Assembly (NCBI GenBank): GCA_036388415.1
Contig: DASVRW010000002.1
Location: 603,396 to 667,395, forward strand
Direction of reading: 5' to 3'
Source of the DNA: Candidatus Saccharimonadales bacterium
GTDB taxonomy: Bacteria > Patescibacteriota > Saccharimonadia > Saccharimonadales > UBA4665
DNA: 64,000 nt
A program made the position numbers and the translations under genes. Below the pieces are notes generated by a model. That model worked only from the letters and a program-made list of their open reading frames with translations, had not been told where the DNA came from and did no database searches. This document shows positions 1,174 to 20,995 of this stretch, one piece after another. How positions within the stretch are numbered: position 1 is the first letter of the stretch; each line of letters begins with the position of its first letter.

Positions 1174-1182
1174 TTGGTGCAG
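1174..1182 (-). repeat. tRNA-Gly tail-like att scar, copy 1
   Basis: This is the leftmost copy of the 9-mer TTGGTGCAG (minus-strand reading CTGCACCAA). The longer match ATTTGGTGCAG is shared with the copy at 9727-9737. It resembles the 3' end of tRNA-Gly(GCC) at 20929-20937, which differs by one base. It lies between genes, upstream of DUF1428 and downstream of map. No clear hairpin with T-run follows it on the minus strand, unlike the other copies, so this is the weakest of the four. Confidence 0.5.
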
Positions 1183-1304
1183 ATATACAGCATTTGCTTA
1201 AACTTTTTGATTGGTTACTTAGTGAACCTAACCGTCCATTCAATATAGCTTTGACCGAGAGGACTGGCATTGTTAGCTCAATTATATATTGAGTGTATGC
1301 TGCC

Positions 1305-2063
1305 TTAAAGAACGGTCAGAATTTCTACGCCATTTTCAGTTACCATAACGGTATGTTCAAAATGCGCTGATAAACTGCCGTCTTCAGTTGAAACTGTCCA
1401 ACCATCATCTTCGAGGATAACTTTTTCACTTCCTAATGTAGTCATCGGCTCAATAGCTATCGTTGTTCCTGGCGTCAGCATTATGCCCGTACCTTGATGA
1501 CCATAATTCGGTATATTCTCAGGCTCCTGATGCATATTATGCCCTATACCGTGTCCAACCAGATCACGAACAATACCTAATTTTGCCCTATTCAATTCCT
1601 TCTCTATGGCTGCCCCTATGTCACCAATACGTGTAGGACCATTTATTGCGTTAATGCCAGCATACAGACTACGTTGAGTTGCACGTAATAAGTGTTCTTG
1701 AATGTCTGTCGGCTCGTCTCCTACCGTCATTGTAAATGCGCTATCCGTCTTCATGCCTTTATAGGTCAATACCAAATCAAAACTGACTAGGTCACCTTGT
1801 TGCAGTATGTAATTTGTAGGTATGCTATGTACCACTTGATTATTAACAGAAATACAAATGGATCCCGGAAAATTCACCTCATTAGTTCTATACGTCGCAA
1901 TAGCACCGTAACGCGTAATCTCTTTTGCCGTCCAGTCATCCAGTACTTTCTCACTAACACCTGGTACGACTTTATCGCGCAAATCTAGTAATATAGTGGC
2001 TAGAATTCTACCGCCATCACGCATTGCCTGTATTTCTGCCGCCGTCTTGTGTGGACCTATCAT
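1305..2063 (-). CDS. map: Methionine aminopeptidase, type I
   Basis: Removes the initiator methionine from nascent proteins in the cytoplasm. The 252-residue protein carries the pita-bread metallopeptidase signatures: SFDLVLTYKGMKTDSAFT with the two metal-binding aspartates, LVGHGIGHNMHQEPENIPNY, IEPM, and HFEHTVMVTENG with the last glutamate ligand. I start at the ATG at 2063; a TTG three bases upstream is also in frame. TATCAT lies six bases before that ATG, so the mRNA may be leaderless. The gene sits alone between two tRNA-Gly-tail-like repeats (1174 and 2118), which suggests it may be a mobile single-gene cassette rather than the only housekeeping copy. That is inference. Confidence 0.93.
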   Translation of the reverse strand: MIGPHKTAAEIQAMRDGGRILATILLDLRDKVVPGVSEKVLDDWTAKEITRYGAIATYRTNEVNFPGSICISVNNQVVHSIPTNYILQQGDLVSFDLVLTYKGMKTDSAFTMTVGDEPTDIQEHLLRATQRSLYAGINAINGPTRIGDIGAAIEKELNRAKLGIVRDLVGHGIGHNMHQEPENIPNYGHQGTGIMLTPGTTIAIEPMTTLGSEKVILEDDGWTVSTEDGSLSAHFEHTVMVTENGVEILTVL

Positions 2064-2080
2064 CAATAAATGATAACAAA

Positions 2081-2098
2081 AAACACGCCAATAGGCGC
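2081..2098 (-). terminator. Weak intrinsic terminator after tRNA-tail-like repeat
   Basis: On the minus strand a short CGCC-TATT-GGCG stem extended by wobble pairs is followed by GT6. It lies about 20 bases after the CCA-like end of the repeat at 2118-2126 and just upstream of the map promoter. This is the place where a displaced tRNA terminator would be expected. Confidence 0.45.
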
Positions 2099-2117
2099 AT
2101 TTGTCATATTAGCTAAA

Positions 2118-2126
2118 TTGGTGCAG
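2118..2126 (-). repeat. tRNA-Gly tail-like att scar, copy 2
   Basis: Second copy of TTGGTGCAG, in the intergenic region between map and hsp20. The minus strand reads CTGCACCAA followed by a hairpin and T-run at 2098-2081. It is interpreted as the junction left by integration at the tRNA-Gly 3' end. Confidence 0.55.
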
Positions 2127-2224
2127 CACAGTTACTGAAGTTATAACCATACTAACATATACAAACAGTCGTTCGGCTGCTTAAGTTGCATAAACAACGT
2201 TAAACCATATACAAACATTGTTAA

Positions 2225-2262
2225 TTAGCACTCTTGACATGAGAGTGCCAGTTTGATATATA
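2225..2262 (+). promoter_or_regulatory. CIRCE operator overlapping the hsp20 promoter
   Basis: TTAGCACTC (2225-2233), nine bases, then GAGTGCCAG (2243-2251) is a near-perfect CIRCE inverted repeat, the binding site of the heat-shock repressor HrcA. The nine-base spacer begins with a perfect -35 TTGACA (2234-2239). A -10 TATATA follows at 2257-2262 after 17 bases, so bound HrcA would cover the promoter. The hsp20 gene lies 174 bases downstream. hrcA itself is not in the window. Confidence 0.9.
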
Positions 2263-2436: not shown

Positions 2437-2910
2437 ATGTTTGATCTAACTCGTCGGCCAAGCAGCAATTTAGGATTATCCACTTTTGAAGAGATGGATA
2501 AGCTGTTTGATAACTTTTTCCGATCAGCTGGTCTGCCAACAAAAGCTTTCAACTTGCCATCAGTAGATATCTACAGCGAGGATGATAAGCACATGGTTGT
2601 CGAGATGCCTGCTCCAGGATTTGATGTCAATGACATCGATATTAATATCCGAGAAGGTGTACTTGAAATCAAAGGTCAGATTACTGAAAAAGACGAGCAG
2701 AAAAAAGACGGACGCAACTATATTGTTCGTGAAAGCAATGCAAGTTTTGCACGTCGAGTAGTTCTGCCTGAAGGTGCGGATGCAGATAATATTGAAGCTG
2801 AGCTTGATAAAGGTCTGCTGAAAATCAAAGTGCCTGTTCACCGCCCAGAAGCAAAACAGGTAAAGGTTCAGGCCGGTAAAAGCTCCGGTGCTAAAAAGAT
2901 TGCAGCTTAG
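2437..2910 (+). CDS. Hsp20/alpha-crystallin small heat-shock protein
   Basis: ATP-independent holdase that binds unfolding proteins in the cytoplasm and forms oligomers. The 157 residues show a short N-terminal arm (FDLTRRPSSNLGLSTFEEMDKLFDNFF), the alpha-crystallin domain from about residue 42 (VDIYSEDDKHMVVEMPAPGFD), the A-x-x-x-R-R-V-V-L-P-E-G-A signature near residue 105, GLLKIKVP near residue 128, and a lysine- and alanine-rich tail. A strong AGGAGG site precedes the ATG. Control is predicted through CIRCE/HrcA. The gene stands alone between two tRNA-Gly-tail-like repeats (2118 and 3146). Confidence 0.95.
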   Translation: MFDLTRRPSSNLGLSTFEEMDKLFDNFFRSAGLPTKAFNLPSVDIYSEDDKHMVVEMPAPGFDVNDIDINIREGVLEIKGQITEKDEQKKDGRNYIVRESNASFARRVVLPEGADADNIEAELDKGLLKIKVPVHRPEAKQVKVQAGKSSGAKKIAA

Positions 2911-2931
2911 GCTTAATGCTTAAGGCACTAT

Positions 2932-2961
2932 AAAGCCCCTGTATTTATAGCAGGGGCTTTT
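2932..2961 (+). terminator. Intrinsic terminator after hsp20
   Basis: AAAGCCCCTG and CAGGGGCTTTT form a ten-base stem around a nine-base loop, with the T-run at the 3' side. The flanking A-run could let it also work on the minus strand. Confidence 0.9.
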
Positions 2962-3324
2962 AACTAATGTCTTATGAAGTACTAAAGAATAAGTTCGAAC
3001 GCCCAACTTAATCTATATAATCTGACAGATATAAAATGCCGCGCAGAGAATCACAGATAATGTTAGAACCGAGACTATAACCAGTAACAGATAAGTGCAA
3101 AATATATAGCGCACCCTAATGATTTGCTATATCTATAAATTCGGCTTGGTGCAGCAGGTAGAAAAAGTTTTCACTCTATCAGAGATGAATACCATAGATG
3201 GAGAGCCATTTTAGATAAACCTTATCAGATGTTTGCAAGCATCAGGTGAGTCCTAGTACTTACACTACTATATAGAGGGCTTGTACTCTTCTAGAAGCAA
3301 ATAAACTAATACCTACGATGAAAG
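2962..3324. other. Intergenic region, no gene seen
   Basis: I see no coding frame with a ribosome site in this 363-base stretch. It holds the third tRNA-tail-like repeat (3146-3154). On the minus strand that is followed by an ATATAGC...GCTATAT hairpin and a short T-run at about 3097-3132. The rest is AT-rich with nothing recognisable. Confidence 0.5.
3146..3154 (-). repeat. tRNA-Gly tail-like att scar, copy 3
   Basis: Third copy of TTGGTGCAG in the same orientation as the others. The minus strand reads CTGCACCAA, then about 14 bases, then a 7-base-pair hairpin with ATTTTG, as for a tRNA tail and terminator. It marks the left edge of the segment that holds the HEPN and restriction genes. Confidence 0.55.
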
Positions 3325-3999: not shown

Positions 4000-4067
4000 A
4001 AGCAATATTGTATCATTATTCTCGTGTATTGTCTATAGTGAAACACCTGATATGGTGGTCGCGATTA

Positions 4068-4727
4068 TTACTCAGCCGATTTAAGCCATTTTGACTTGCC
4101 ATCACTAAACACACCGCTAATATATTCAACGTCAATCTCGCTAATTCTACTGGCTTCTCCGCGAAGTAAATTGTTCATTAGGTCATGCGTGTCCTTGATG
4201 GCTTCTCTAGCGTCACCGTCCATGTACCATACCGTGTTTCCATAAACATTATTCAACTTATTGACTAAATCTTTCACATCTTCAAACAACTTAATATAAT
4301 CATCCTCTGATACAGTGTTAATTGTCTTCAGATCAACGTCACCAAGGTGAGCAAAATAGTCCATTCTTAATTCGGTTATCGTTTTGAGCGTGGTGTTATG
4401 TTTTTGTCTCAATTTTTCTAAGTCAGCTGTAAAATTACCTTCTCCTGCGGCTTGCATTTTGTTGATTACCTTCTCTAGTGACTTCTTATCATTGCTTGAT
4501 ACAAGGCGATTAAGGTTATTCATTGTGTATGACAGAGCGCCTTCTAGTAGTGGTAAGAAAAAACCCTTGTGGCTAGTAATCACTTTAAGGTATGCTTCCG
4601 CCGCATCTGCGTTCACTGCTTTATTGAAATGTAGATAGACTTCACGCCTAACTAAGTATGCATTTTCAATATGAAACACTTTTTGGTTAATGTCATTAAG
4701 CAATTTCTGATTTTCATTTTCGGCCAT
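4068..4727 (-). CDS. HEPN domain protein, AbiU2-like
   Basis: A 219-residue, mostly helical protein. It has the HEPN ribonuclease motif R-x(5)-H as RMDYFAH (Arg121, His127), preceded by the helix FFLPLLEGALSYTMNNLNRLV, in the style of AbiU2-type abortive-infection proteins. HEPN proteins of this kind often cut RNA during phage infection, alone or with a partner. TATACT lies six bases before the ATG, so the transcript may be leaderless and separate from the upstream restriction genes (183-base gap). No antitoxin such as an MNT nucleotidyltransferase is adjacent. Family call good; function inferred. Confidence 0.7.
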   Translation of the reverse strand: MAENENQKLLNDINQKVFHIENAYLVRREVYLHFNKAVNADAAEAYLKVITSHKGFFLPLLEGALSYTMNNLNRLVSSNDKKSLEKVINKMQAAGEGNFTADLEKLRQKHNTTLKTITELRMDYFAHLGDVDLKTINTVSEDDYIKLFEDVKDLVNKLNNVYGNTVWYMDGDAREAIKDTHDLMNNLLRGEASRISEIDVEYISGVFSDGKSKWLKSAE

Positions 4728-4909
4728 ACTGTTAGTATAAATGATATTGCTGCATCTAAATGTCGCACAATGAATCTTGTACGACAGCGATTAACAGCGG
4801 TAGAGTCATTTTTTTCTGATAAAACGTCTTGTCAAGTATCTGTAATATCTTTGCCCACCCCTGTTAGATAACATATTATACAATAATGGGGTTCCAGTCT
4901 AAATAATCG

Positions 4910-6079
4910 CTATCTATTGCCTTTTGCCCGGTTGTGAGACTTGCAGAGCAATTCACAATTCTCTTTTCCTGTAGAACCACCCTTGCTCCATGCAGTGACA
5001 TGGTCAGCATCCATATCACTTAACGCCCAGACTTTGTCCTTGTTTGCGTCATGTCCTATAGCGCAGTATGAGCAATTAGATATGCCCTTTTCTTCAGCGG
5101 CCTTAGTCTGCTCTGAATAAACTGCTCTTTTTGTGGGCTCATCAAATACACGGATATTTAGTAATTTAGTGTCAGTGGAGCCGCCAAGAATATATTCGTA
5201 TACACCACGACGGTCTTTGACCTCATAACTACCCAACAGCTTATGTAATTCCGCAGATACCGCCTGGGGATCGTAGCTCTTGTTATAGTATGTTTCGTAT
5301 AGCCTGCCCCATTCCAAGCCCTTCATCTCACTTTCGACGTCGCTAAAGACGTTTGATACCCAGTTGATTACAGTATTGAAATGCGTTTTCAGCTCGTTAA
5401 TATTATCGTCATAGCGGTGTTTGCTCATATAGTCACCGATATTACCTCGGCTCACCCAATTAAGCGCCCGTTCCAAAAAATCTTGCCGAATAGCACTGCC
5501 ATTAATAAACGTGCTCCATTTATTGATGTTAGCATTCTGACTATTGCTAAATTCTTCTTTAGCAAGCGTAACGAACGGTCCAGAATACACGGCGTTCAAA
5601 AGTTCCTGTTCATTGAGCGGAACGCCGACAATGTTAATGGTCTTAAACCATTCTTTAATTTCGCTTTCGGTGCCATGACATTCATATATCAATAGCCTAC
5701 TGTTCATTATCAATTCGCGTTTGTCATCGGCCATGCCACTAAAGTACTGCTCATGACCGTTCTCGTCGCGTACGGCAAATTTGCCGGTAACAAACCGCCC
5801 CACACTTGTTATACGCTGCTGTCCATCAAGCACCTCATATTTACCATCGCTGACTTTATTGAAATATATAAGACCCAGGGGGTAGTCCTTCAGTAAACTT
5901 TCGATAACAGCCTGTTCTCGTCTACCACTGTCGCTGGCATAGATGTAATTCCGTTGGTATTCGGGCTGAATGGTTAGCTTACCGCCTAAACCAAACAGTC
6001 CCTTACCCTCTAATTCGTTGTATACAAAGCCATCAACGACTTCCCGAACGGTAGTGTTTGTCCAAAGGTTAGTAATCAT
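4910..6079 (-). CDS. DUF262 protein with C-terminal HNH nuclease
   Basis: A 389-residue predicted restriction-type nuclease. The N-terminal DUF262 (ParB-like, GmrS-type) domain shows QPEYQR at residues 38-43 and [11 protein letters not shown] at about 82-92, which in relatives handles NTP. The C-terminal HNH motif is DADHVTAW...N...LLCKSHN within the last 45 residues, preceded by a CSYC pair. The ATG overlaps the stop of the EcoRI-like methylase by four bases, so the two are translated as a unit. This pairing suggests a restriction-modification or modification-sensing system. DUF1524, the usual partner domain in GmrSD enzymes, is absent. Confidence 0.85.
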
Positions 6080-7311
6080 GCGGTTGCCTTTCTGTGTTGA
6101 ATAAAAATGCGGGCGTACAGTTGCTTGTAATATTTACCATCAACTATGTAATAAGTATCTCCCAACGGCGGCGTATCGAACTGAATCGTCACGCCGTCAT
6201 TTAATTTCGAGACAGTGCTTGTTGCGCCGTTTTTACTAACTTGGATTTGTGCCGGGTAGATTTTATTGGCAAAATTGTACCAAGTCTTGGATATTCCCAA
6301 AATTTCAAATTGCTCTGGATCATATTTATCCAAAAAAGTAATCGGTACTCCCATCACGCCATTGCAATCGCTTGGTATCGAATCTGTAAAAGGCACCTCG
6401 ATAGCGTCATAATTATCAAAACGGTCATAGTCTGTTTTACCCGCCATCTTTTTGTTGAACTTCAGATTATCCGACATAGTCATCAGACTGAGCGGTTGGT
6501 GACGACGGCCATGATCAAGATTAGTGAACCAGTGGACTCCTGGTACTCGAACAAATTTATTTCCTTTTTCATCAGTTCGCTGACTCGAAGAATGCAACAC
6601 CACTCCTGCCGGTACTTGGAATTCTCTATCGCCTCCCGTAATACTTGGCCCATACCAAACTTTATTCTCTTTGATTAATGGAAATATCTCTTTATATGTG
6701 ACAGCATTTTTATTACCAATTATGCAGAATTTCTTATTATGCTCTACTAACTGCGCCATATATTCTCTAAATAAACTGAACGGCGGATTCGTCACAACTA
6801 TGTCACTTTGTTTGAGTAACTCCACGCATTCATCGCTCCTAAAATCACCATCTTCATCAAGAGGCGACCACTCATTATGCTTATTGTCCTTTAGCTGCTT
6901 AGCAACGTCTTGCAAACTGAATTGCCCGTCACCATCATAATCCCCAACATCGGAGATTATGAATTTGTTGGCAGTAACTTTTGGCCGTCCCTTTATTTCA
7001 ATCTTTTTTTCTGTCGGTTTTTCGCCGTTAAATACTTCTAGAGTAAGCTGAACTTCGGTGTTCGCGATCGGAGATGGCTTATAACTCGTAGTAATCAATT
7101 TCTTCAGTCCCAGCCGTTTAAAATTCAGCACAAAATAGCGAAAGAAGTTACTCTCGTATGGATCGTCGCAATTACAGTAGACCACCTTGTCCTTAAATGT
7201 GTTGGGGTCAAACTCCAGGTATGCCTCGATCTCCTTCTGAATGTCAGCGTATTGTGTGTAGAACTCGTCGTTTTTTGCTTTCTTTGCTGTACCAAGATTT
7301 TTATTTGCCAT
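6076..7311 (-). CDS. EcoRI-type adenine-specific DNA methyltransferase
   Basis: A 411-residue protein of the EcoRI methylase family (PF13651). The start [15 protein letters not shown] and VVYCNCDDP at about residues 43-51 are typical. The catalytic motif IV is NPPF at 175-178 within [15 protein letters not shown]. It would transfer a methyl group from SAM to the N6 of adenine in a short DNA site; the site cannot be read from the protein. A perfect TATAAT lies at 7323-7328, 11 bases before the ATG, leaving almost no leader. It is directly coupled to the DUF262-HNH gene. Confidence 0.92.
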
Positions 7312-8004: not shown

Positions 8005-8211
8005 ATGTATGACTTCGGTCAGTCGGCTAACCCACTGACACATAAAGCAACAAACAAAAATACGGTTGTCGAGAGACCCGTACTCACACCAAAACAACTA
8101 CAAAAGCAGGACGCACTGGATCTTGCAGAACTCATCTATGACATGTATAAGGATGGTTTGTCCAGTGCTAACATGGAAGAAAATAACGAAAAGGACAATA
8201 ACAATGGCTAA
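8005..8211 (+). CDS. Small protein preceding a recombinase
   Basis: A 68-residue polar protein with a central amphipathic helix (LTPKQLQKQDALDLAELIYDMYKD) and an acidic asparagine-rich tail. AGGA is followed by seven Ts directly before the ATG. Its end overlaps the start of the broken serine recombinase by eight bases. The same layout (hairpin, ribosome site, T-run, ATG, short polar protein, recombinase operon) recurs at 17801-18042, so it is probably an accessory or control protein of this recombinase family. Function unknown. Confidence 0.5.
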   Translation: MYDFGQSANPLTHKATNKNTVVERPVLTPKQLQKQDALDLAELIYDMYKDGLSSANMEENNEKDNNNG

Positions 8212-9695
8212 AGAATTCTCTATATCAAGCTGTAGGGTTTCCACGCCGGAACAACTTGAAAATAACAGCTTAACTCGTCAGCACGAAAACGTTCTGAGAG
8301 CGTCAGATGAACTTGGTGCGCCAATTATTAAGTATTGGTCTGGCAATATGTCTAGCAAACGTGGCACAATATTGATCGTACCGACATCAAAGATATGATA
8401 ACTTTCTGTAAAAAGAATAAGCAGGTAAAATACCTGATCGTAGATGAGCCAGATAGGTTCATGCGCTCTGTAGACGAAGGTATATATTTTGAAGTTGTGT
8501 TTCAGTAATTAGGCGTTAAGGTTTGGTATGCTTCAGACCCGATCTTGAATGGTAATAATCTTTCCGCGAAACTACTAAAATTTCTAAATATTTCTCTGCT
8601 GAAGGCAGCAACGATGAGCGAATATTAAAATCTATTAACGGGCAAACCACAGCTCTTAAATCAGGTAGGTATCCCTTCTCGCCGAAGCCTGGTTATATGA
8701 AAGGTGCTCGAACTGGTGTACCCGAAGTGCATCCAGTCAGAGGACCCGCATTACGTGATATTTTAGTAAGAGTCGCTGAGCATAGAATAACACCCACACA
8801 AGGTCTTATTGAGCTAAATAAAAGTGATTACACCCAAGAACGTGCATTATTAAAAATGGATAAGTTTCGTAAGATAGCGACTGATCCATTTTATGCGGGG
8901 ATTACAGATATTAGCAAACAAGTGACTGTTCGTAATGAGAGTGCGCTGCATGAACCGCTAATCACCCTGGCATATCACAAAGAGCTTATAAGGGTATTCA
9001 CTGCAAAGAAAAAGAATCAGTCAGGACCACGTAAAAACGGCAATCCGGAATATCCACTAAACATAATCACAATACACGACACATGCCTCGAATATAAAAA
9101 CAAAGGTAAGTTCGTTGGATTCCAACATAGCAATGGAAAAAATCCCAATCTCATATACAAGAAATACCGTTGTCGCTCATGCAAATTTTATGTTGGCCGG
9201 GATGAGCTACACTCAAAAGTAGCTCAACTGTTCGCCGACAACCCTATAACATTCGAAGGCGTTAAAAGACTCTTAGAAGCTTTGGAAACCGTATGGAAAA
9301 CGAAGGAATCTCAAGCCAGACAGGACAGTATACGTATTAGCCAAAAGATTAGCTCTCTGAGGGAAGATATAAGTAATCGTGCTCTGGCCGCTATTGATCC
9401 ATCAAACATTTCAATTAAATCAGAGATACTGGCCAATATAGAGATGATGAAAACAGAAGTAACCGATTACGAAGAACAGCTGACGACGTTAAATCAAAAA
9501 GCTGATACCGACAAGCAACGTTTCCTAGAATTCGCGTTCAACTTTGTCATTAATATGAAGGATAGCTACTTCTCTTTAACACCTGAAAATGCCAAAAAGT
9601 GTAAACAAATCATTTTTCCAGCTGGTTTTTACATGGACGCTAACAAAAATGTTTACACCCCCGAAATAAGCCCTCTCATCAGATTAGCGACAAAC

Positions 9696-9716
9696 AAAAA
9701 GGACACCGAAGTGTCC
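9696..9716 (-). terminator. Terminator beside att scar copy 4
   Basis: GGACAC-CGAA-GTGTCC preceded by A5 on the plus strand is a terminator for the minus strand. It follows the CCA-like end of the repeat at 9729 by about 13 bases. The flanking AAACAAAAAGG is identical to that beside the terminator of tRNA-Gly at 20897, which suggests a displaced copy of the same tRNA tail. Confidence 0.7.
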
Positions 9717-9728
9717 GATAAAGCTCAT

Positions 9729-9737
9729 TTGGTGCAG
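9729..9737 (-). repeat. tRNA-Gly tail-like att scar, copy 4
   Basis: Fourth copy of TTGGTGCAG, inside the 3' end of the decayed recombinase gene. With ATTTGGTGC at 20927-20935 it forms a direct repeat exactly 11,200 bases apart. That repeat brackets the segment with the CBASS-like pair, the nine-gene operon, the replication protein and the intact recombinase. I take it as the left attachment junction of that element. Confidence 0.65.
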
Positions 9738-9865
9738 GATAGCCGACGCATTTCAAACGTCAGCCATGAACGCCAGTGAGGATTATAAACTCAAGAACTT
9801 GGTAGAGATATTCGGATTGTCAGGTAATCTACTCGACACTTAATGCCGATCGGGGTAATTAAGCG

Positions 9866-10288: not shown

Positions 10289-10348
10289 ATCCTCTTATGC
10301 TTGCCTAAACGCAGTCATAAAATCATAATTGTTTGCAAGGAAACTGTT

Positions 10349-10849
10349 ATGCCTACAAATACCAAGCAAGAAATGAAAAAAGAAGCCAAACGCGTTGAAG
10401 AAAGCGCTAAGTATAGTGCGCAGACACAGTTTGAATACTCTAAAACCTGGAGATCGGTAGATCGTTGGATCAGCGCTATTGCTGCATTGATCGCTGCAAT
10501 ATCTGGTGCTGGCGGCCTAGCTGACGTGATACCAGGAAAATGGGCCGGGTTAATCACTCTTATCTCAGCTGGGCTTAGTGCCATCGCCGTTTCGCTAGGC
10601 GCTCCCAAAACCAAGACATTAGCTCACGCCTCTGCAAACGCATACCTTGCGCTTCAACAAGATGCGAGGGCTTTCATAAACATTGACCTTGACCTTCTGC
10701 CTACCGATGAGGCGCGCGAAGTACTTGCAAAGCTGATTGCACGACACCAAGAGCTTAATAATACCGCCGAAATACCTTCCTCACGAGCATGGAAGAAAGG
10801 TAAAAACAATGTTGAGGCGGGCGATCAAAAGTATGAAGTTGACGGCTAA
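10349..10849 (+). CDS. SLATT-domain 2TM effector
   Basis: A 166-residue protein of the SLATT type (SMODS- and SLOG-associating two-TM effector). It has an N-terminal amphipathic helix (residues 5-30), two hydrophobic helices at about 41-60 and 65-84, and a helical C-terminal tail. In CBASS-like defence such proteins respond to a nucleotide signal and damage the membrane. I start at ATG 10349 because AAGGAA lies six bases before it; an in-frame ATG at 10301 lacks a site. The stop overlaps the start of the CD-NTase gene (TAATG), so the pair is translationally coupled. Confidence 0.75.
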   Translation: MPTNTKQEMKKEAKRVEESAKYSAQTQFEYSKTWRSVDRWISAIAALIAAISGAGGLADVIPGKWAGLITLISAGLSAIAVSLGAPKTKTLAHASANAYLALQQDARAFINIDLDLLPTDEAREVLAKLIARHQELNNTAEIPSSRAWKKGKNNVEAGDQKYEVDG

Positions 10850-11727: not shown

Positions 11728-12284
11728 ACTTCATTATCGAAAATAAAGTCAGCGTAGCGCTCGGGATGATACTTTTGCTGATATGCTAAATCATTCTCAG
11801 CCCATAGATCCCAATGTTGTTCGTTTTCATTACCCGCATCTCTTAGCTTGCCGCGTTGCTTCGCAACCTCGATAGGTGTTTCTATCCAGATTTTATAATC
11901 GTAATAGCTGGCGATGGCAGGATGGAATGCGGATATGCCCTCTATAATTAGGTAGTCACTATCCGGCACCTTGATTGGATCACTGAGCTTATTCTGTTCC
12001 CATTCTAGCCGATGATACGTAACGGGCTGGCCCGTTGTTGCAGGTATCAAAACCTCTTTCTCGAGCCGGTCACGATCGAAACCAACCTTATCAGGTGAGC
12101 GATCAGTCAGCTTGTCTTTAATTATAAAATCGTCAATGTTGATAACTTGAGCAACCCCAAGAGCTTGCTTGAGCATCTCGGCGACAGTAGATTTACCCGA
12201 GCCGCCATAACCCTCGATCGCAATTATAATGGGTGTAGTAGCTGTATCAGATTTTATCTCTGCAATTATTTCTTCAAACGTCAT
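11724..12284 (-). CDS. Uridine-kinase-like P-loop kinase
   Basis: A 186-residue P-loop kinase with Walker A GYGGSGKST at about residues 24-32 and INIDDFI after it. The lid and substrate segments are VTYHRLEWEQNK and DYLIIEGISAFHP, typical of the uridine kinase/phosphoribulokinase family. It would phosphorylate a nucleoside or another small hydroxyl compound; the substrate is unknown. It is the last of nine same-strand genes running from 16917, 20 bases after the SLOG gene. Confidence 0.8.
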   Translation of the reverse strand: MTFEEIIAEIKSDTATTPIIIAIEGYGGSGKSTVAEMLKQALGVAQVINIDDFIIKDKLTDRSPDKVGFDRDRLEKEVLIPATTGQPVTYHRLEWEQNKLSDPIKVPDSDYLIIEGISAFHPAIASYYDYKIWIETPIEVAKQRGKLRDAGNENEQHWDLWAENDLAYQQKYHPERYADFIFDNEV

Positions 12285-12304
12285 TTATGTTCTTAATTTC
12301 CATT

Positions 12305-12814
12305 CTAGGTATCTATGGTGTATTGTTTTTGCATTACGGGCATACCCATACTTAATGCTTTATCAATTGTATCCTGAGTTCCTAAAGAACTATTGACCTG
12401 AAAAGCTAGAAGCTGGTCGGCATCCTCTAGTACTTTTGTATTACGATCGTAATAGCTTTCTTCATTCAAGATAGAATGGCCCATTTCAATCAGCGATTGT
12501 TCCCTGCGCTGTTTGACGGTGCTTAACAAGCCGATAAGCGCTTCAGATTGCTCAAGCGTAATAACACCTTCATCGGCTCGTTTACGATAGTGAGCGGCAT
12601 AAATATCAAGCGTGGTCGTCAGTATAATGGTTATGCGGTCGGCTTCTGGGTTGCGTTTAATGGCTTCCTCTGTGGCAACATAATCTACACCTAAAGCACC
12701 GCCAATAACAATACCGTTACCCCGCTCAATTACGTCAGCTACATCATCTCGTACATCCTGTACGATCTCAGGACTTGATCGACGCCACGAGCCGGAGATT
12801 GCAACCCACTTCAT
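12305..12814 (-). CDS. SLOG-like Rossmann nucleotide-binding protein
   Basis: A 169-residue protein with an N-terminal strand WVAISGSWR and the glycine-rich loop VIGGALGVDYVATEEAIKR at about residues 36-54, as in the SLOG/DprA-like superfamily. Its C-terminal TQDTIDKALSMGMPV is typical of the nucleotide-binding crevice. SLOG proteins bind or cleave nucleotide-derived ligands, and some work with SLATT effectors, which makes the neighbouring SLATT/CD-NTase pair notable. It abuts the kinase-like gene upstream with no gap. Confidence 0.6.
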   Translation of the reverse strand: MKWVAISGSWRRSSPEIVQDVRDDVADVIERGNGIVIGGALGVDYVATEEAIKRNPEADRITIILTTTLDIYAAHYRKRADEGVITLEQSEALIGLLSTVKQRREQSLIEMGHSILNEESYYDRNTKVLEDADQLLAFQVNSSLGTQDTIDKALSMGMPVMQKQYTIDT

Positions 12815-13696
12815 TTAGTAGCCGTGCCTTTCCAGCAGTTCCAAACATAGGCGCACATTTTCAGCCTGAGCTTGTCGGCGACTCAGATCGCGGTCTTCAT
12901 CAATATCGCGACCGCTTAGTATTGAATCCAGCCAAAAACTAACCAAATATGCCAACATCTGTGGATCATATTTTTCCGGGTGCTTCTCGTATGGGTCAAA
13001 ACCGAACTTATACATATTGATAAACAGCGGGGTGGTGTCTAGACTAGCGTCTCCTATACAAAGCCAATTCCAATCAATCAACTTGCCCGTTTTTGTTTTA
13101 GGATCGTAGCCGAAGTTGTCTGCCCGTATATCTTGATGGGTTAAGGTATCGGCCTGAAAAGACCAGCCCTCGTTCATGGCGGCTAACTTCGTTAAAGTAT
13201 CGTAATTTACATCTATGCTCGTGCCAAGTTCAGGCACACGCTTGCTTAGCCATTCGACTGATTCGTCCTGTAGCAATGTTGGCCACTTATTATCCAAACT
13301 AACCACGCTATTTGGGCTAAAATCCTCATCGCCTTTAAATAGGTATGCAAATGGTTTCAAAGCCTCTTGAGCTTCAATAACAGCGTTTAGCTTGTCATCG
13401 TCCCATGTGTCTTCAAAACTATAATCACGTAAGTACTCTATCGCCATGCCGGTGTCGTTATCATTTACTGCGTATAGCATCGGTACGTGCGGGTAACCGG
13501 CCTCATTGAGTTTTTGATAAACCTTCACTTCTTTTGCAAGCCACTTCTTAGTCTGCTCTCCCGTTCCAACCTTAACAAATAACTTAGTACCATCCTCTAT
13601 GATGATAAAACCACGCTGCGCAGGAGAATAGCCGCCCGATACCTCACCCATAGACTCAAGGCGAGGAATAATATCGCTATTCCAGTTGTATTTCAT
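12815..13696 (-). CDS. Aminoglycoside phosphotransferase (APH) family kinase
   Basis: A 293-residue small-molecule kinase of the APH/choline-kinase fold. The catalytic loop is THQDIRADN with His187, Asp189 and Asn194; the metal-binding aspartate is Asp208 in KLIDWNW. The N-lobe has KLFVKVG with the ATP-binding lysine and AKEVKVYQKL with its glutamate. It would phosphorylate an alcohol or aminocyclitol. Whether it confers antibiotic resistance cannot be told from sequence. Its start overlaps the stop of the hydrolase gene upstream by four bases. Confidence 0.85.
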   Translation of the reverse strand: MKYNWNSDIIPRLESMGEVSGGYSPAQRGFIIIEDGTKLFVKVGTGEQTKKWLAKEVKVYQKLNEAGYPHVPMLYAVNDNDTGMAIEYLRDYSFEDTWDDDKLNAVIEAQEALKPFAYLFKGDEDFSPNSVVSLDNKWPTLLQDESVEWLSKRVPELGTSIDVNYDTLTKLAAMNEGWSFQADTLTHQDIRADNFGYDPKTKTGKLIDWNWLCIGDASLDTTPLFINMYKFGFDPYEKHPEKYDPQMLAYLVSFWLDSILSGRDIDEDRDLSRRQAQAENVRLCLELLERHGY

Positions 13697-14253
13697 GCCT
13701 TTAGTAACTCCTTGAGCAAAGCAAACTCTCTATAAGGCTGATTAAACGAACCCGAACCCATGTGGCCTTGCCCGCTCGCTAGTATAAACTCAGCGCCTAA
13801 TTTCTCGGCTACCGGACGAGCTTGCTTATCATTACAGCCCCAAGGATCGTTATCGGAGTTGATCAGTACAATCTCTTTAGCAGCTTGTTTTATTGCTTGC
13901 CAGTCGTACTCTTCTTTTTGCAACATTAACTCAGAAAAACCCTCATCATCTATTGATTGATAAAAGCCAGAGACTAAGATCAACTGCTTGATAGGCACTT
14001 GAACATACTGCATCAGTGTCAGCAGAAGCGGGCAAGCCGACGAGTGGCCAATGACAATAGTTTCTTCATCAAATGGAGGCATATTATCTTCAATATAGTT
14101 TCGGCTTTCCTCAAGCTCTGGCTTGTCGGTGTTTGGCAGTAACGGCCACCAAACAGTGTATCCCTTAGACTCTAGGTACTTCTTTGTATCCGCAAACCAG
14201 AAGTAGTCCGTGTTACTCCCGCCCGTTCCGTGAAGTAGCCATGCCGTCTTCAC
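13693..14253 (-). CDS. RBBP9/YdeN-type alpha/beta hydrolase
   Basis: A 186-residue serine hydrolase of the RBBP9/YdeN family. The nucleophile elbow is GHSSA (about residue 109), the acid is in INSDNDPWG (about 151) and the histidine is in GQGHMGSG (about 163). The oxyanion strand is WLLHGTGGS. The substrate is unknown. It overlaps both neighbours by four bases, which indicates coupled translation in the nine-gene operon. Confidence 0.85.
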   Translation of the reverse strand: MKTAWLLHGTGGSNTDYFWFADTKKYLESKGYTVWWPLLPNTDKPELEESRNYIEDNMPPFDEETIVIGHSSACPLLLTLMQYVQVPIKQLILVSGFYQSIDDEGFSELMLQKEEYDWQAIKQAAKEIVLINSDNDPWGCNDKQARPVAEKLGAEFILASGQGHMGSGSFNQPYREFALLKELLKA

Positions 14254-14579
14254 GCCTGCTCCAGTCTATAAACGTCGATCGCAGGCTCTTCGTACGAGTG
14301 TGCCTCCCGAATTGTTTTAACAACTTCTTTTAGGCTGTCACCGTCACAGGTAATTTCAATACGCTCTTCTACAACTTGCTCTAGTTTACCTACTTCACCT
14401 ATTGCTGGGTTTGCGTCGTCGCCGGGTAGAAATCTACCGATACCTTTTACAGAGAAGCTACAGTGCGTATACTTGCCAACTCTGCCACCGCCAGCGTTAC
14501 CAATAGCATCCCTTAGCTTGTCAGCTTCGCCTTCGGGTACGGTAACGACTACCTTGTAAATTGTCATCGGCTCGTTCAT
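14250..14579 (-). CDS. NIF3/YqfO C-terminal-like (PII-like fold) protein
   Basis: A 109-residue protein equivalent to the ferredoxin-like insert domain of YqfO/NIF3 (DUF34) proteins. It has YKVVVTVPEGEADKLRDAIGNAGGG, then YTHCSFSVKGIGRFLPGDDANPAIG, then a VEERIEI strand and AHSYEEPAIDVY. The domain resembles PII and CutA1 and is thought to sense small ligands. Here it stands alone without the metal-binding NIF3 halves. It sits in the operon with four-base overlaps on both sides. Confidence 0.8.
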   Translation of the reverse strand: MNEPMTIYKVVVTVPEGEADKLRDAIGNAGGGRVGKYTHCSFSVKGIGRFLPGDDANPAIGEVGKLEQVVEERIEITCDGDSLKEVVKTIREAHSYEEPAIDVYRLEQA

Positions 14580-15712
14580 TGACCGGCCTTTCTGACCATT
14601 TCAATTTCAGGGATATGCGTATTACCATACACATTACCCTCATCAACAATTTGCGCATCCGTTTGCTCAAAACCAAAGCGTTTGTAAAAATCTATAGCGT
14701 TTTGATTGTAGCTAGCAACGCGAAGATAAATATCATCACTGTTGCCATGCCACTCAAGTATCTTATCTATGAGCTTGCTACCTACACCCATACCTTGTGC
14801 GTCGGGTGAAACATATAATGCTCCTACATGTTTTCTGCCATCAATAAAGCCAGGCCCAGCCATGCCAATTATCTTGTTCCCCGCACGTGCGACAAATACA
14901 GCTCCCGTTCCATCCTCACTCTCGATTCGTTTACGCCAGTTTTCTATATTTTTTGGAATACGTTCACCATTTGCGCCTTCAGTACGAAGTCGGATATCTT
15001 CTTCCGTAATGCCCTCAGCTTCATTAGGGTAGGTTGCCATCCAAGTACGTCTTAATAAATCCGAAACGGCCTCAGCATCTTGCGAGACAGCTCTCTCAAT
15101 AGAGACGCTACGTTTATCGGCTTCTCGGTTATTTACATCTGCTTTTAGCACCATTTCAATTTGAGGCAACGACTTCATAAAATCAGGTCGACCCGGCTCG
15201 TCAGTCACCACTGCGTCAGTCTTCACAAAGCCAAAACGATTATAAAAATTGATAGCATTTTGATTATAGGCAACGACCTCAAGGAATATGTCATCGCAGG
15301 GTCCATGCCACTCAATTGCTCGTTGTATAAGCCTACTACCTATGCCAACTCCTTGAGCTTCCGGTGAAACGTAAATAGCGCCTATGCGACGTTTGCCGTC
15401 TTCTATAGACGGATCGACATAGCCAACAACTTTACCATCGACCTTAGCAACAAATGTGTCTCCGTCGGGTCTGTCGGTTTTTCCGAGCTTTTCTTTTAGA
15501 TAGGCGATCCTGCGTGGCACAAACTCGCCCTCAAGGCCCTGCGCATTCACTTTGATATCTTCAGGCGTGATTCCAAGCTCGGGGTTAGGATAGGCTTCAA
15601 TCCAAGCTCGGTCTCTGATGTCACAAATAACTTCAGCATCTTCGGGTAACGCTCGCTCAATTTCAACTGATTGTTTATCGTACTCTGGCTTTGGCATAGT
15701 TGTTTCGCTCAT
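14576..15712 (-). CDS. Tandem GNAT acetyltransferase
   Basis: A 378-residue fusion of two GNAT domains. Each carries the acetyl-CoA loop: GAIYVSPEAQGVGIGSRLIQRAIEW at about residues 111-135, and GALYVSPDAQGMGVGSKLIDKILEW at about 294-318. Each is followed by the YNQNAI(N/D)FY(N/K)RFGF signature. The halves are clearly an internal duplication and remain similar along their length. Both would transfer an acyl group from CoA to an amine; the substrate is unknown. The gene is separated from the NUDIX gene by two bases and overlaps the NIF3-like gene by four. Confidence 0.9.
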   Translation of the reverse strand: MSETTMPKPEYDKQSVEIERALPEDAEVICDIRDRAWIEAYPNPELGITPEDIKVNAQGLEGEFVPRRIAYLKEKLGKTDRPDGDTFVAKVDGKVVGYVDPSIEDGKRRIGAIYVSPEAQGVGIGSRLIQRAIEWHGPCDDIFLEVVAYNQNAINFYNRFGFVKTDAVVTDEPGRPDFMKSLPQIEMVLKADVNNREADKRSVSIERAVSQDAEAVSDLLRRTWMATYPNEAEGITEEDIRLRTEGANGERIPKNIENWRKRIESEDGTGAVFVARAGNKIIGMAGPGFIDGRKHVGALYVSPDAQGMGVGSKLIDKILEWHGNSDDIYLRVASYNQNAIDFYKRFGFEQTDAQIVDEGNVYGNTHIPEIEMVRKAGQ

Positions 15713-15714
15713 AT

Positions 15715-16125
15715 TTAAGTATGTAATTCTGGATTATAGATCTTTATAAACTCTTTAACCTGCGGGAATAGATCCTCTTTATCAGCCTCGTCTTTATTAA
15801 AGAATCGCAGCTCAATACACTCGTCAGATGGAGTAAAGTTAAGGTCTTTTAGTTTTATCTCATAAATAATGTTTGCAACATAACCCTCTCGCCCAACTTT
15901 AGGCGCAGTTACGAAGTACTTTGGAGTCGAGGATACTTTGATTATTTCAAGGCCAGTCTCTTCTTTTATTTCTCGTTTCAGGGCTGCGATCGGATCTTCG
16001 CCGTGGTCTAAGCCGCCGCCAAGTAGTTCCCATTTACCATTATCTTCTTTCGCCAATAAGAATCTGCCCGTTTCGTCTATCGCAATCCCTTTGACGCTAA
16101 CTCGAAAGTGGTTCTGATCGTTCAT
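15715..16125 (-). CDS. NUDIX hydrolase
   Basis: A 136-residue pyrophosphohydrolase. The Nudix box starts at GGGLDHGEDPIAALKREIKEETGL (about residues 36-59), with the REIKEE core that binds metal. NUDIX enzymes cleave nucleoside diphosphates linked to another group. The specific substrate is unknown. It overlaps the HAD gene upstream by four bases and is the third gene of the operon. Confidence 0.88.
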   Translation of the reverse strand: MNDQNHFRVSVKGIAIDETGRFLLAKEDNGKWELLGGGLDHGEDPIAALKREIKEETGLEIIKVSSTPKYFVTAPKVGREGYVANIIYEIKLKDLNFTPSDECIELRFFNKDEADKEDLFPQVKEFIKIYNPELHT

Positions 16126-16727
16126 CTTTGCGCCTCATTGAGTAGATCCTTTATCTGCTGATTGGATTTAAAGAGTCTAGCATCTATGCCTAGTGCTTTC
16201 GCTGTATTGATCTTTGACTCGCTATCGTCAAAGAAAATAACTTCATTCGGCTTCAAGTCAGGATAATCGTCACCTAACTTTTGCAGCACTAGCTCAAAAA
16301 ATCTTGAATCTGTTTTTGTGACACCAAGTTCGGCCGAAACAAAATAGCCACTAAATAAGTCTTTGAACATTACATTTTTCATATACTCTGCGCGATACTT
16401 TTCTTGGTCGGTAGCGAGATAGCAAGGAATGCCTCTGCCCTTAATGTCGGCAATAATTTTGAGAAGTTCTTCGTTGCGTACGTCTTCGGTTTTGAACCAG
16501 TATTCAAGGAGTTCGTCTACACTACCCTCCCATTGCCATAGCTCAGGGTTGGCAACCATATGCTCTTTTAGATCCTTCGCACCTGTCACAATTGACTGCC
16601 ACTCGTTTCTAAAAAAGTCTTCAAATAACTCCGGGTCAAGCGCATGAGAGCGCGCATAAACAATTGAAAATACGTCTTCAGGTAATGTTAAAACGCCATC
16701 AGCGTCGAATAAAATACACTTAGTCAT
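16122..16727 (-). CDS. HAD-superfamily hydrolase
   Basis: A 201-residue HAD phosphatase with motif I LFDADGV (nucleophile Asp near residue 8 and acid Asp two residues later), motif II at YLATDQEKYR (threonine), motif III lysine in VTKTDSRFF, and motif IV in VIFFDDSESKI. The cap inserted between motifs I and II is helical, as in the beta-phosphoglucomutase-like subfamily. It dephosphorylates an unknown small molecule. It overlaps the MerR-like gene by eight bases. Confidence 0.88.
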   Translation of the reverse strand: MTKCILFDADGVLTLPEDVFSIVYARSHALDPELFEDFFRNEWQSIVTGAKDLKEHMVANPELWQWEGSVDELLEYWFKTEDVRNEELLKIIADIKGRGIPCYLATDQEKYRAEYMKNVMFKDLFSGYFVSAELGVTKTDSRFFELVLQKLGDDYPDLKPNEVIFFDDSESKINTAKALGIDARLFKSNQQIKDLLNEAQR

Positions 16728-16917
16728 TTTTACCCCTATTTAAGAGCTTCATTATATCTTCCCGCCTGTAGCGCCTGTCGCCCCGTGTGCCGAAACGTAC
16801 GGCAACTAGGTAGCCTTTAGCGTCCCATGCCCGCAATGTGTTCGCGTGGCAATTTAATAGCTCACACGCTTGCTTGAGCGTTAGGAGCTTCGGTTCTTTT
16901 TTCTCTGGATGTGGCAT
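16720..16917 (-). CDS. MerR-type helix-turn-helix protein, likely operon regulator
   Basis: A protein of 65 residues with a MerR/excisionase winged helix: LLTLKQACELLNCHANTLRAWDAKGYL, then GDRRYRREDIMKLL. It is the first gene of the nine-gene operon. I prefer the ATG at 16917 because TATAGT lies exactly six bases upstream, giving a leaderless start; an in-frame TTG at 16932 is open too. It may control its own operon or act as an excisionase for the element. The 256-codon gene is divergent from it, with only about 50 bases between. Confidence 0.7.
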   Translation of the reverse strand: MPHPEKKEPKLLTLKQACELLNCHANTLRAWDAKGYLVAVRFGTRGDRRYRREDIMKLLNRGKND

Positions 16918-16970
16918 ACTATAACTATACAATACTTACCAGCAGGAAGATAAACTAGCAGATACGAATT

Positions 16971-18290: not shown

Positions 18291-18292
18291 TC

Positions 18293-19420
18293 ATGGTAGA
18301 TACGATCAAGTTACTGCTAAAAATCGACGACCCTATGGTTCTTAGCAAAGGTGCTTTTACGCCATTAAGCGTCAAGCAGCTCATGCGAGCGGGAGGCATG
18401 ACAAGAACTTTTCTAAATCCCTCGTCGAAGTATGCTTCGCACCTCGGTAAGTATATGCCGCGCCTGACACTACATAGACGGGCCGCAAAAACCATCGGTG
18501 TCGTTTACCAGTTAGCCGTTGAGTTCTCAGCGCCCAAGCTGCTATACGGTAATAACTTCAGCGAGGTGGAAGAAGAGGATTTCATCATGATCCTGATGGT
18601 GTTGCGGGATAGGATTCACGAGCTCACGAGTTACAAATTCACTCTTAGCGAGCTGGCAGCGGCAGATGTTGGGTCATGGCACCCATGTAAAAACGTCATC
18701 TTTAGGGGCTACATATCAGCTCAGACAATCCTTGGCACCGTCCCCAAGCTAGATGTCAGCAGACTCTACGATGTGCAACGCACTAACTTTCGGGACGGTC
18801 ATGTCGTGCATATCCACTGCAATTCAGTAGATGTCGCCTTTTACGATAAGCTAGCCGATCTTCGCAAAGCAGCAGTCAGTGATAAGCGAGCATTCGAGGA
18901 CGATAGCGCGATCCAGCTAAGGCATCTGGCGAGTCTTGAGAAAAGTGGGGTCACGATACTACGTCAGGAGGTGCGCTTGGGTGGTAGGCAGGCCATTAAG
19001 CGAGCCTTCTCTGATTTGGACAGCTGGACGTTTGAGTCACTATATAAGGCCGAGTTATGTCAGGCAACGCTACTAAAGCATTGGCATCGACTTAGTAATT
19101 CGGTGGATATGCTTAGCCTCGATGCCGCCAGACCCTATGAGCTATTGCAAAACTACATGCTCGATAGTCCAGACGCATCAGCCAAAGACGCATTAGCAGC
19201 CATTGGTAGCCTGTTGGTGTGTGGGCAGGAGGGCGTACTCGGTCTACGTAACTTGATAGAGCCACAGTACGGTTCTAATGTGTGGTATCGCATTAAGAAA
19301 CTGGTACGTAATCCTTCCGCACACCGTTTTACGCATTTTCAACATGTGCAAAACACCCTTGAAACATTCAAACCGCTACGGATGTCAGACATAAAATTGT
19401 TTGAAGATGATAGTAAGTAA
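18293..19420 (+). CDS. Gene II/X-like phage/plasmid replication initiation protein
   Basis: A 375-residue protein resembling the phage/plasmid replication protein gene II/X family, rolling-circle initiators. Visible elements are LAVEFSAPKLLYGNNFSEVEEEDF, a VVHIHCNSVDVAFYDKLADL block with the HxH-like HIH pair and YDK, and conserved VLRQEVRLGG. The catalytic tyrosine cannot be assigned by eye. With the recombinase 24 bases downstream, this suggests that the element excises and replicates. The gene follows three small overlapping genes with a two-base gap. Confidence 0.6.
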   Translation: MVDTIKLLLKIDDPMVLSKGAFTPLSVKQLMRAGGMTRTFLNPSSKYASHLGKYMPRLTLHRRAAKTIGVVYQLAVEFSAPKLLYGNNFSEVEEEDFIMILMVLRDRIHELTSYKFTLSELAAADVGSWHPCKNVIFRGYISAQTILGTVPKLDVSRLYDVQRTNFRDGHVVHIHCNSVDVAFYDKLADLRKAAVSDKRAFEDDSAIQLRHLASLEKSGVTILRQEVRLGGRQAIKRAFSDLDSWTFESLYKAELCQATLLKHWHRLSNSVDMLSLDAARPYELLQNYMLDSPDASAKDALAAIGSLLVCGQEGVLGLRNLIEPQYGSNVWYRIKKLVRNPSAHRFTHFQHVQNTLETFKPLRMSDIKLFEDDSK

Positions 19421-19444
19421 TGGTAAGTTAGTAAGGAGTAATAT

Positions 19445-20995
19445 ATGGAAAAACGAATTCTTATAGCCAGAGTATCAGACGTTGAGCAGCGCAAAGCACT
19501 GCCTGCACAACGCCAAAGGCTAGAGAACTATGCCAAACAACTTGGCGGCCCCTACGAGTATTTTGAGTTTGATGAGAGCGCCTATAAAGAAGCTCGGCAA
19601 AAGTTCTCTCAGCTCGTAGAGAAAATCAGAACCCTCGACCACTTTGCGATTATTGTCTTCGATAAAATAGATCGTTTTACCCGTGACGCTTCGCAGTCTG
19701 AAGTGCGAATAATGGGTGGCTTGGTCGAGAAGGGCAAGATCGAGATGCACTTCCCGTCTGATAACTTGGCGATCACCAAGGACTCACCTGCTACCGATCT
19801 CTTCCGACTGGGTATTGGCATGCTGCTGGCAAAGTACTATTCGGATGCCAGCCGTGATAATGTGAAGCGCCGCTTCGAACAAATGCTAAACGATGGCATA
19901 TGGGTACACCGCGCGCCGACTGGTTACAAAAATGTGATCACGGGTGGCACGCCTCAGCGCCCCACTAAAGACATAGAAGTCGATCAAGCCAAAGCTCACT
20001 TTGTGGTTAAAGCATTCGAGATACGGGCGCAGGGTATCTCGTACGGCATGATCGCAAAAGAACTTGGCAAGATGGGCTTCAGTAGCAATGTCGCTGGCAA
20101 CAAACCGCCGACTAAAGCATTTCTAGAGCGCATGCTTAATAACAAGTTCTACTACGGAGTAATGACGCACTCGGGTAGAGATTACCCTCACAAATACGAA
20201 CCCTTAATTGAGCGCTCCCTATTTAACCAATGCCAGTCGGTGCGTGATAAACGCAAACACGACAAGACCAAATATGACAGCATCGACTATACCTTTAAGA
20301 AGATCGTGAGCTGCGGCGTATGCGGTCGCGCCGTATCACCTTTTAAGGCGCGGAATACGGTCTATTTACGATGTGCCAGCGCCGGTAAGTGTGGTGATCC
20401 GAATACGGCGGAGAGTTTGGTGATAGATCCCGTGTCCGCCGATATGAGCTTTGTCGGCATACCAGAAGAATGGTTAGAACAGATAATTACTGAGCTGCGC
20501 AAGCGTCATGACGACCAGCAGCAATACTATGGTAAAAACATTGAGCAGACTAGAGCGGAATACGATCGCCTAAAGTTGAAGATGAAGCGACTCTATGATG
20601 ATTACCTCGACGGGCGTATTACTCAGCAGACTCACGACGATTACGCCAACGAGATGGAATCTAGGCAACAAGAACTCAATGATCGCCTAAAAGTTCTAAC
20701 AAAGGACAATAAGAGCTTTCAAGTGACCGCTTCATACCTGTTAGACCTAGCACAGCGAGCTGAACTGCTCTTCAAAACCAGTGACGAAGGGCTAAGACAG
20801 AAGCTCCTTGAATACGTACTTTCAAACATTGAATTAAAGGATAAGAAGTTGTCGTATATGTTCAATAACCCCTTTGGAACAATCGTCGAGGCAAACAAAA
20901 AGGCCCTTGCGGGCCAAAATGATACTATTTGGTGCGGGTCAGGGGACTCTAACCCCTGGCCTCGTCCTTGGCAAGGACGCGCTCTAAACAACTGA
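19445..20995 (+). CDS. Large serine recombinase (integrase)
   Basis: A 516-residue recombinase. The resolvase domain has the catalytic serine in LIARVSDVEQ (about residue 11) and VFDKIDRFTRD at about 69-79. The recombinase domain (GTPQRPTKDIEVDQ onward), a zinc ribbon (SCGVCGRAVSPFKARN...LRCAS) and a coiled coil at about 360-430 follow. It should integrate and excise the 11.2 kb element at tRNA-Gly. The last 20 or so codons, after Trp near 20932, are the antisense of the tRNA, so the C-terminus (CGSGDSNPWPRPW onward) is host-encoded in the integrated state. No frameshift is seen. Confidence 0.93.
   Translation: MEKRILIARVSDVEQRKALPAQRQRLENYAKQLGGPYEYFEFDESAYKEARQKFSQLVEKIRTLDHFAIIVFDKIDRFTRDASQSEVRIMGGLVEKGKIEMHFPSDNLAITKDSPATDLFRLGIGMLLAKYYSDASRDNVKRRFEQMLNDGIWVHRAPTGYKNVITGGTPQRPTKDIEVDQAKAHFVVKAFEIRAQGISYGMIAKELGKMGFSSNVAGNKPPTKAFLERMLNNKFYYGVMTHSGRDYPHKYEPLIERSLFNQCQSVRDKRKHDKTKYDSIDYTFKKIVSCGVCGRAVSPFKARNTVYLRCASAGKCGDPNTAESLVIDPVSADMSFVGIPEEWLEQIITELRKRHDDQQQYYGKNIEQTRAEYDRLKLKMKRLYDDYLDGRITQQTHDDYANEMESRQQELNDRLKVLTKDNKSFQVTASYLLDLAQRAELLFKTSDEGLRQKLLEYVLSNIELKDKKLSYMFNNPFGTIVEANKKALAGQNDTIWCGSGDSNPWPRPWQGRALNN
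20897..20915 (-). terminator. Terminator of tRNA-Gly inside recombinase gene
   Basis: On the minus strand GGCCC-loop-GGGCC followed by T5 lies 14 bases after the tRNA CCA end. On the plus strand the same bases encode recombinase residues near the C-terminus (KKALAGQ), so tRNA terminator and coding sequence overlap. Confidence 0.75.
20929..20937 (-). repeat. Right attachment core at tRNA-Gly 3' end
   Basis: TTGGTGCGG contains the CCA end and the first acceptor bases of tRNA-Gly. It differs at one base from the four TTGGTGCAG copies to the left. If crossover occurs within GGTGC, an element with attP GGTGCAG would leave GGTGCGG at the tRNA and GGTGCAG at its far end, as observed. Confidence 0.6.

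Follow-up and report, generated by a model that had tools for sequence, protein, structure and literature searches.

Why does one short sequence recur, always in the same orientation, behind a glycine tRNA gene of a Candidatus Saccharimonadales bacterium, and what are the genes that lie between its copies? We addressed this question for a stretch of 64,000 nucleotides (GenBank assembly GCA_036388415.1, contig DASVRW010000002.1, positions 603,396 to 667,395 of the forward strand), hereafter called the window. The sequence TTGGTGCAG matches exactly at positions 1174, 2118, 3146 and 9729, each time on the plus strand, and TTGGTGCGG at 20929 is the 3' end of tRNA-Gly(GCC). An earlier note, made from this DNA alone, had given all of these coordinates correctly, as well as the flank AAACAAAAAGG, identical at 9691 and 20892, which represents homologous C-terminal codons (...NKK...) of recombinase genes. 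According to our analysis, the locus very probably arose by serial integration at the 3' end of tRNA-Gly(GCC), so that autonomous elements would stand beside single-gene cassettes moved in trans.

The argument from chance made in the earlier note is weak for the 9-mer alone and gains support from its clustering. With 0.59 copies of TTGGTGCAG expected per window and at least four copies in two of 100 shuffled sequences, the 9-mer alone is only suggestive evidence. It occurs 18 times in the 1.14 Mb of the genome, from which a Poisson probability of about 1e-5 follows for four copies within 8.6 kb, and it is the sole G+C-rich 9-mer in the window with four copies so closely spaced. A further copy at C2:599516, which lies 3.9 kb beyond the left edge of the window (C1 and C2 denote contigs), and the other genomic copies have no arms and were taken as chance. 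Hairpins followed by a T-run had been claimed for 2118, 3146, 9729 and the tRNA; terminator-like folds were found on the minus strand at 2118 (-13.6 kcal, z -2.3), 9729 (z -1.8) and tRNA-Gly (z -1.6), while those at 3146 (z -0.3) and 1174 (z -0.8) did not exceed shuffled sequence.

We regard what follows the core as the decisive feature, namely a conserved, coding tail. To the right of the core, about 100 bases are conserved in relatives (genomes with handles beginning in G) and form the final 34-37 codons of a large serine recombinase gene. The class-A tail reads LVQQVGKSLHLIRDEIGRWRKILEVPYQEYLLSK followed by a stop, and the class-C tail, including that at 9729, reads WC[RKS]IVDAFQTSAI...DYKLKNLVEIFGLSGNLL. 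Class B is shorter and WCSIVNESITIL-like; it includes the arm at 2118, which is also present in G002 (three copies), G018 and G012, and the class occurs in G001 too. Class D, WLPLVDVLRN, belongs to arrays at tRNA-Asn and tRNA-Gln. The repeats had been explained as simple displaced tRNA tails, a reading that we dropped because the tails proved to be coding; they are instead hybrid attachment (att) sites, made of TTGGTGC from the tRNA side and a conserved recombinase C-terminus.

A profile hidden Markov model (HMM) scan of the fetched loci of relatives detected 60 class-A and 62 class-C tails, and none of these 122 lay on the opposite strand. For 35 loci the tRNA was the only guide to orientation, and all 36 of their tails lay 3' of tRNA-Gly. 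Beyond the order such tails are scarce, with one class-A match (G452) and one class-C match (G482, same taxonomic class) among 287 genomes across the phylum. In the chromosomes the tails are separate from full-length recombinase genes. Since a coding recombinase tail follows the core, attP would be located in the 3' end of the recombinase gene. Most simply read, the integrated gene ends in antisense tRNA and has left its tail at the opposite end of the element. The reconstituted attP displayed weak maxima of dyad symmetry 10-16 nt right of the core start, an analysis that was not used.

From the anatomy of the locus, insertion at the tRNA end by a serine recombinase and the resulting integrated structure are well supported. 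A large serine recombinase would integrate circular DNA at the core TTGGTGC, where the tRNA gene ends. In the autonomous elements (9729-20929 and the dead 3146-9729) the recombinase would sit at the tRNA end with attP in its last codons; upon integration its gene would lose the C-terminal tail to the far end of the element and gain an antisense-tRNA ending, and the tRNA would get a new terminator from the inserted element. The same ends, a recombinase tail on the left and a terminator or left arm on the right, would bound the one-gene cassettes of about 1 kb, which would be moved by a recombinase acting in trans. Each newcomer would join beside the tRNA, the newest being nearest to it, so that arrays would grow as in integrons. 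Catalysis in trans, a circular intermediate and the order of insertion are what we infer here.

Within the window (Table 1), 9729-20929 is apparently an 11.2-kb intact element, in which the recombinase adjoins the target, a direct repeat lies at the far end and the tRNA is restored, as in tRNA-targeting integrative elements. Its excisionase-like gene, 375-aa open reading frame (ORF) and recombinase recur as a module in G046 and G183. The interval 3146-9729 is an older, dead element: its cargo is of the restriction-modification type, and its recombinase, which enters the core at 9729 in the LV frame, is broken. The proposal of one dead and one live element was borne out by the relatives. The interval 1174-2118 is probably a map cassette, with a geometry like that of other cassettes. 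Its map is a second copy; the other one, at C1:17179, is only about 50% identical, and the closest relative (65% identity) belongs to another family. Like the cassettes of relatives, map and hsp20 have att sites at both ends and no recombinase, the left site of map at 1174 being doubtful; their interpretation as single-gene cassettes is strengthened by the relatives, and 1174 is its weakest boundary. Decay rises with distance from tRNA-Gly, as expected if newcomers join beside the tRNA, an order that is itself deduced.

Table 1. Features of the tRNA-Gly(GCC) array, and related arrays of the same genome. Positions refer to the window, or to the contig where marked C2.
Feature	Position	Strand	Basis or remark
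Outermost core, probable left border of map cassette	1174..1182	+	Core exact
map (methionine aminopeptidase) paralogue, lone gene of probable 944-bp cassette	1305..2066	-	PF00557
Terminator-like left arm, right end of probable map cassette	2068..2117	-	Fold z -2.3
Boundary: core and class-B tail (WCSTVTEVITIL...), left end of hsp20 cassette	2118..2165	+
hsp20, lone gene of 1.03-kb cassette (2118-3146)	2437..2910	+	PF00011
Boundary: core and class-A tail, frameshifted relic (...RDEYHRWRAILDKPYQMFASIR, stop)	3146..3249	+	tblastn to tails of other genomes
Cargo of 6.6-kb dead element 3146-9729: HEPN AbiU2-like, GmrSD_N-HNH endonuclease, EcoRI-type methylase	4068..7311	-	Pfam; PADLOC REase_II, MTase_II
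Decayed class-A large serine recombinase (frameshift/stop)	8198..9779	+	44.7-53.7% identity to G005/G055 recombinases
Boundary: core and intact class-C tail (WCRIADAFQTSAMNASEDYKLKNLVEIFGLSGNLLDT, stop), left end of apparent 11.2-kb element	9729..9843	+	83% identity to class-C tail query; homologous tails elsewhere
Pair like the cyclic-oligonucleotide-based antiphage signalling system (CBASS), cargo: 2TM/SLATT effector and oligonucleotide cyclase (CD-NTase)	10301..11727	+	PF18144; PADLOC Effector/Cyclase
Variable cargo: phosphotransferase, double GNAT domain, other small enzymes	11724..16727	-	Pfam for some ORFs, rest from ORF list only
MerR/HTH_17 excisionase-like gene	16720..16932	-	73-85% identity in G046, G183; phrog excisionase
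Conserved module ORF (375 aa) upstream of recombinase	18293..19420	+	60/54/54% in G046/G183/G039, adjoining same recombinase
Intact large serine recombinase, last codons (GSGDSNPWPRPWQGRALNN) antisense to tRNA	19445..20995	+	PF00239, PF07508
tRNA terminator (left arm) encoded inside recombinase 3' codons, other strand	20884..20928	-	Fold
tRNA-Gly(GCC), integration target	about 20929-21006	-	ARAGORN; core TTGGTGC is tRNA 3' end
Array behind tRNA-Gln(TTG), four boundaries with WLPLVDVLRN	C2:247190-249975		Mostly one small ORF per interval
Array behind tRNA-Gln(CTG), five boundaries	C2:424520-431020

The relatives contain the same arrangement of single-gene cassettes lacking a recombinase that had been suggested for the window. 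Defining a cassette as an interval of 200-4000 bp between tails with no recombinase, we counted 94 across 42 genomes, with a median length of 956 bp, and 57 of these hold a single ORF of at least 60 aa; in G002, ten boundaries follow one another within 8.9 kb. Only two of 129 boundaries interrupted an ORF of at least 100 aa, compared with 65% of random positions. ORFs of at least 100 aa pointed in the direction of the tRNA in 104 cases and in the opposite direction in 12, and the tRNA promoter might therefore drive the first cassette if the terminator leaks. The cargo is diverse and comprises short-chain dehydrogenases, HD, DinB-like, DUF2726, CYTH, NTPase, peptidase S51, HIT, PIN and HAD proteins, PhzF, trehalose synthesis and others. 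The sequences themselves demonstrate the boundaries and tails, the matching of ends, the single-gene content, the horizontal spread of whole cassettes and the variable content at a fixed locus.

Tandem islands at tRNA genes are common, and the intervals could alternatively be the product of accretion and decay, that is, full-size elements that lost their recombinase by deletion, with no small mobile cassettes involved. The decayed element of the window (8198-9779) and the recombinase fragments that adjoin boundaries in G003, G024, G229 and G085 are in line with such a history. We nevertheless consider it unlikely in view of how compact and how regularly ended the intervals are. In single-gene cassettes the left end of the ORF, just beyond the tail, has a median distance of 119 nt from the core, and from its right end to the next core the median is 78 nt. 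Both ends are intact and matched by class: the left arm agrees with the tail class at the other end of its own cassette in 65 of 88 cases (shuffles: mean 44, maximum 55), whereas the tail class of the neighbour (36 of 56) is not predicted. Class-A cassettes typically end in ...GAGGTCATAATGCTTATG[GC] and class-C cassettes in ...GTTTGAAAnTATACTGTTTnAAAAnCGTTTGGGTnnA; the left arms are cassette-specific and without recombinase codons, and two cassettes of G002 have an arm of about 126 bp in common and nothing else.

Deletion would also hardly produce entire cassettes that are common to two families from core to core. A cassette of 0.83-0.85 kb with an S51 peptidase is 84-86% identical in nucleotides in G021, G026 and G201, which represent three genera of two families and are 70-73% identical in rpoB; in G201 it does not adjoin the tRNA. 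A PIN-gene cassette is likewise 84% identical in G011 and G233 (rpoB 73%). The matched ends together with the spread across families strongly suggest that cassettes are mobilised in trans.

Improbable, and more so than accretion and decay, is the idea that the tail is an independent small gene of 34-37 codons, for example a regulator or a recombination directionality peptide, which travels with the cargo. The tails are under protein-level constraint (pN/pS 0.16 and 0.14), and this purifying selection extends to tails of recombinase-free cassettes; class-A cores moreover begin with TTG GTG or ATG GTG, possible start codons. Classes C and D, however, begin with WC or WL and have no start codon, and the tail frames fit the recombinases that end at the core. 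LV-frame recombinases (G005, G055, G060, G009 and the dead copy of the window) are paired with class-A tails and WC-frame recombinases (the live copy of the window, G046, G183) with class-C tails, G058 being the single exception. Nine chromosomal class-C recombinases lose their similarity to the tail-bearing model at the core, where the tail should start, and in G229 the recombinase C-terminus runs in one frame into a class-C tail. Under the serial-integration model, selection on tails without a recombinase can be explained if recombination within arrays keeps re-joining tails to recombinase genes, as G229 may illustrate.

The view that the gene order is ordinary and the repeats are due to chance or regulation, to which the only mild improbability of the 9-mer by itself might point, has next to no chance of being correct. 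It is refuted by the conservation of the arms, which are extended and coding, keep a fixed orientation and occur on only one side of tRNA genes with contents that vary among congeners, and it is at odds with the class-D pattern, which at other tRNAs matched 22 times (13 of 60 genomes) and 0 times in reversed controls.

Comparison of the locus among relatives agrees with the claim of repeated integration at one tRNA-Gly. In the congeners G002, G003 and G004 synteny holds to the right of the tRNA (436-aa protein at 87, 83 and 71%), the left content is unrelated, and no cassettes on the 3' side are common to these congeners. This comparison was run as a refuting test named in the earlier note, and conserved boundaries occurred only 3' of the tRNA. 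Such arrays are not confined to tRNA-Gly: the same genome has further ones at tRNA-Gln (Table 1), with one gene between most boundaries, and they also occur at tRNA-Asn. Relatives of the live recombinase reside at tRNA-Asn and tRNA-Gln and likewise end in antisense tRNA. Those at tRNA-Asn were seen in G009, G019 and G037, with candidate boundaries with TTGGCTC cores in G009. Full-length relatives in G002-G004 were considered as fixed cassette integrases and dropped, as they are tRNA-Gln elements with an antisense-tRNA ending.

Several observations weigh against serial integration with cassettes moved in trans. The boundary at 1174 has no recognisable arm: its right side is at most a decayed class-C tail with a broken reading frame, missed by the tail HMM. 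Some intervals hold not one gene but 2-5, and a number of boundaries may have escaped detection. The left arms of recombinase-free cassettes are unlike the ones seen on elements that bear a recombinase, most orphan arrays (e.g. the Gly array of G002) could not be assigned an acting recombinase, and the model does not account for the reuse of a hybrid junction, composed of an element arm and the tRNA, as a target. No excised circle of a cassette or element was found in the collections searched. Phage and plasmid records were searched for the tail peptide, and viral contigs and plasmids for tail-bearing recombinases, and neither revealed an intact excised form or an intact tail-bearing recombinase.

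Two further observations concern the window. The element of G058 at tRNA-Gly carries a CBASS-like pair related to that of the 11.2-kb element. At 59498-61146, a large serine recombinase (C2:663102-664541, minus strand) adjoins tRNA-Lys(CTT) at 59498-59574, possibly as part of another tRNA element.

Integrons are the standard gene-cassette capture system of bacteria and are based on a tyrosine recombinase. The arrays described here share with them (IntI, attC) an ordered series of mostly single-gene cassettes of about 1 kb in one orientation, addition at one end and diverse cargo, and the recombinase-free arrays resemble clusters of attC sites lacking integron-integrases (CALINs). They differ in that serine recombinases (PF00239, PF07508) rather than a tyrosine IntI are found at these arrays, in that the platform is a tRNA 3' end and not an attI beside an integrase gene, with no fixed integrase at the array, and in that the att site is double-ended, one arm being a recombinase tail and the other a terminator. 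The array thus appears to work like an integron but is not an integron.

Other known systems share single traits with it. Cis-mobilizable elements (CIMEs), the accretion of integrative conjugative or mobilizable elements (ICE/IME) and tandem islands also place recombinase-free, att-flanked elements beside related autonomous ones at the same site; here the units are single genes of about 1 kb whose ends are specific to the cassette; as many as ten follow one another, and they occur at several tRNAs throughout an order. The staphylococcal cassette chromosome (SCC; Ccr, orfX/rlmH) likewise relies on large serine recombinases and forms serial arrays of uniform orientation, some members lacking a recombinase, but CcrAB or CcrC insert it into rlmH/orfX, whereas here the target is tRNA-Gly, the single-gene units are far smaller and attP lies in the recombinase gene. 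Archaeal integrases of the Sulfolobus spindle-shaped virus (SSV) type have attP inside the integrase gene, which integration at a tRNA splits; they are of the tyrosine type, while the exchange here would be limited to the ~35 final codons of a serine recombinase. Tycheposons of Prochlorococcus are tRNA-associated, cargo-carrying elements with satellites that use tyrosine recombinases and are larger.

We found no prior description of such arrays in the open-access literature, subscription-only papers lying beyond that search. The single-gene cassettes behind tRNA genes of Saccharibacteria look like an independent counterpart of integrons. We lean towards a gene capture system convergent with integrons, in which several families of large serine recombinases, each having attP within its own gene, would use tRNA-Gly, tRNA-Gln and tRNA-Asn as platforms on which arrays of promiscuous single-gene cassettes would be built and shuffled. 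Each insertion would swap the C-terminal tail of the recombinase, and cassettes would in this way take along and trade a coding part of the very enzyme by which they are moved. If true, this would provide a large set of natural att pairs of serine integrases together with a natural cassette format, and tail exchange offers a testable idea of how a serine integrase may be switched between its integrated and circular states. It would further represent a second, independent system of cassette capture, present in ultrasmall symbionts with reduced genomes, and would reveal a route by which these bacteria take up single foreign genes.

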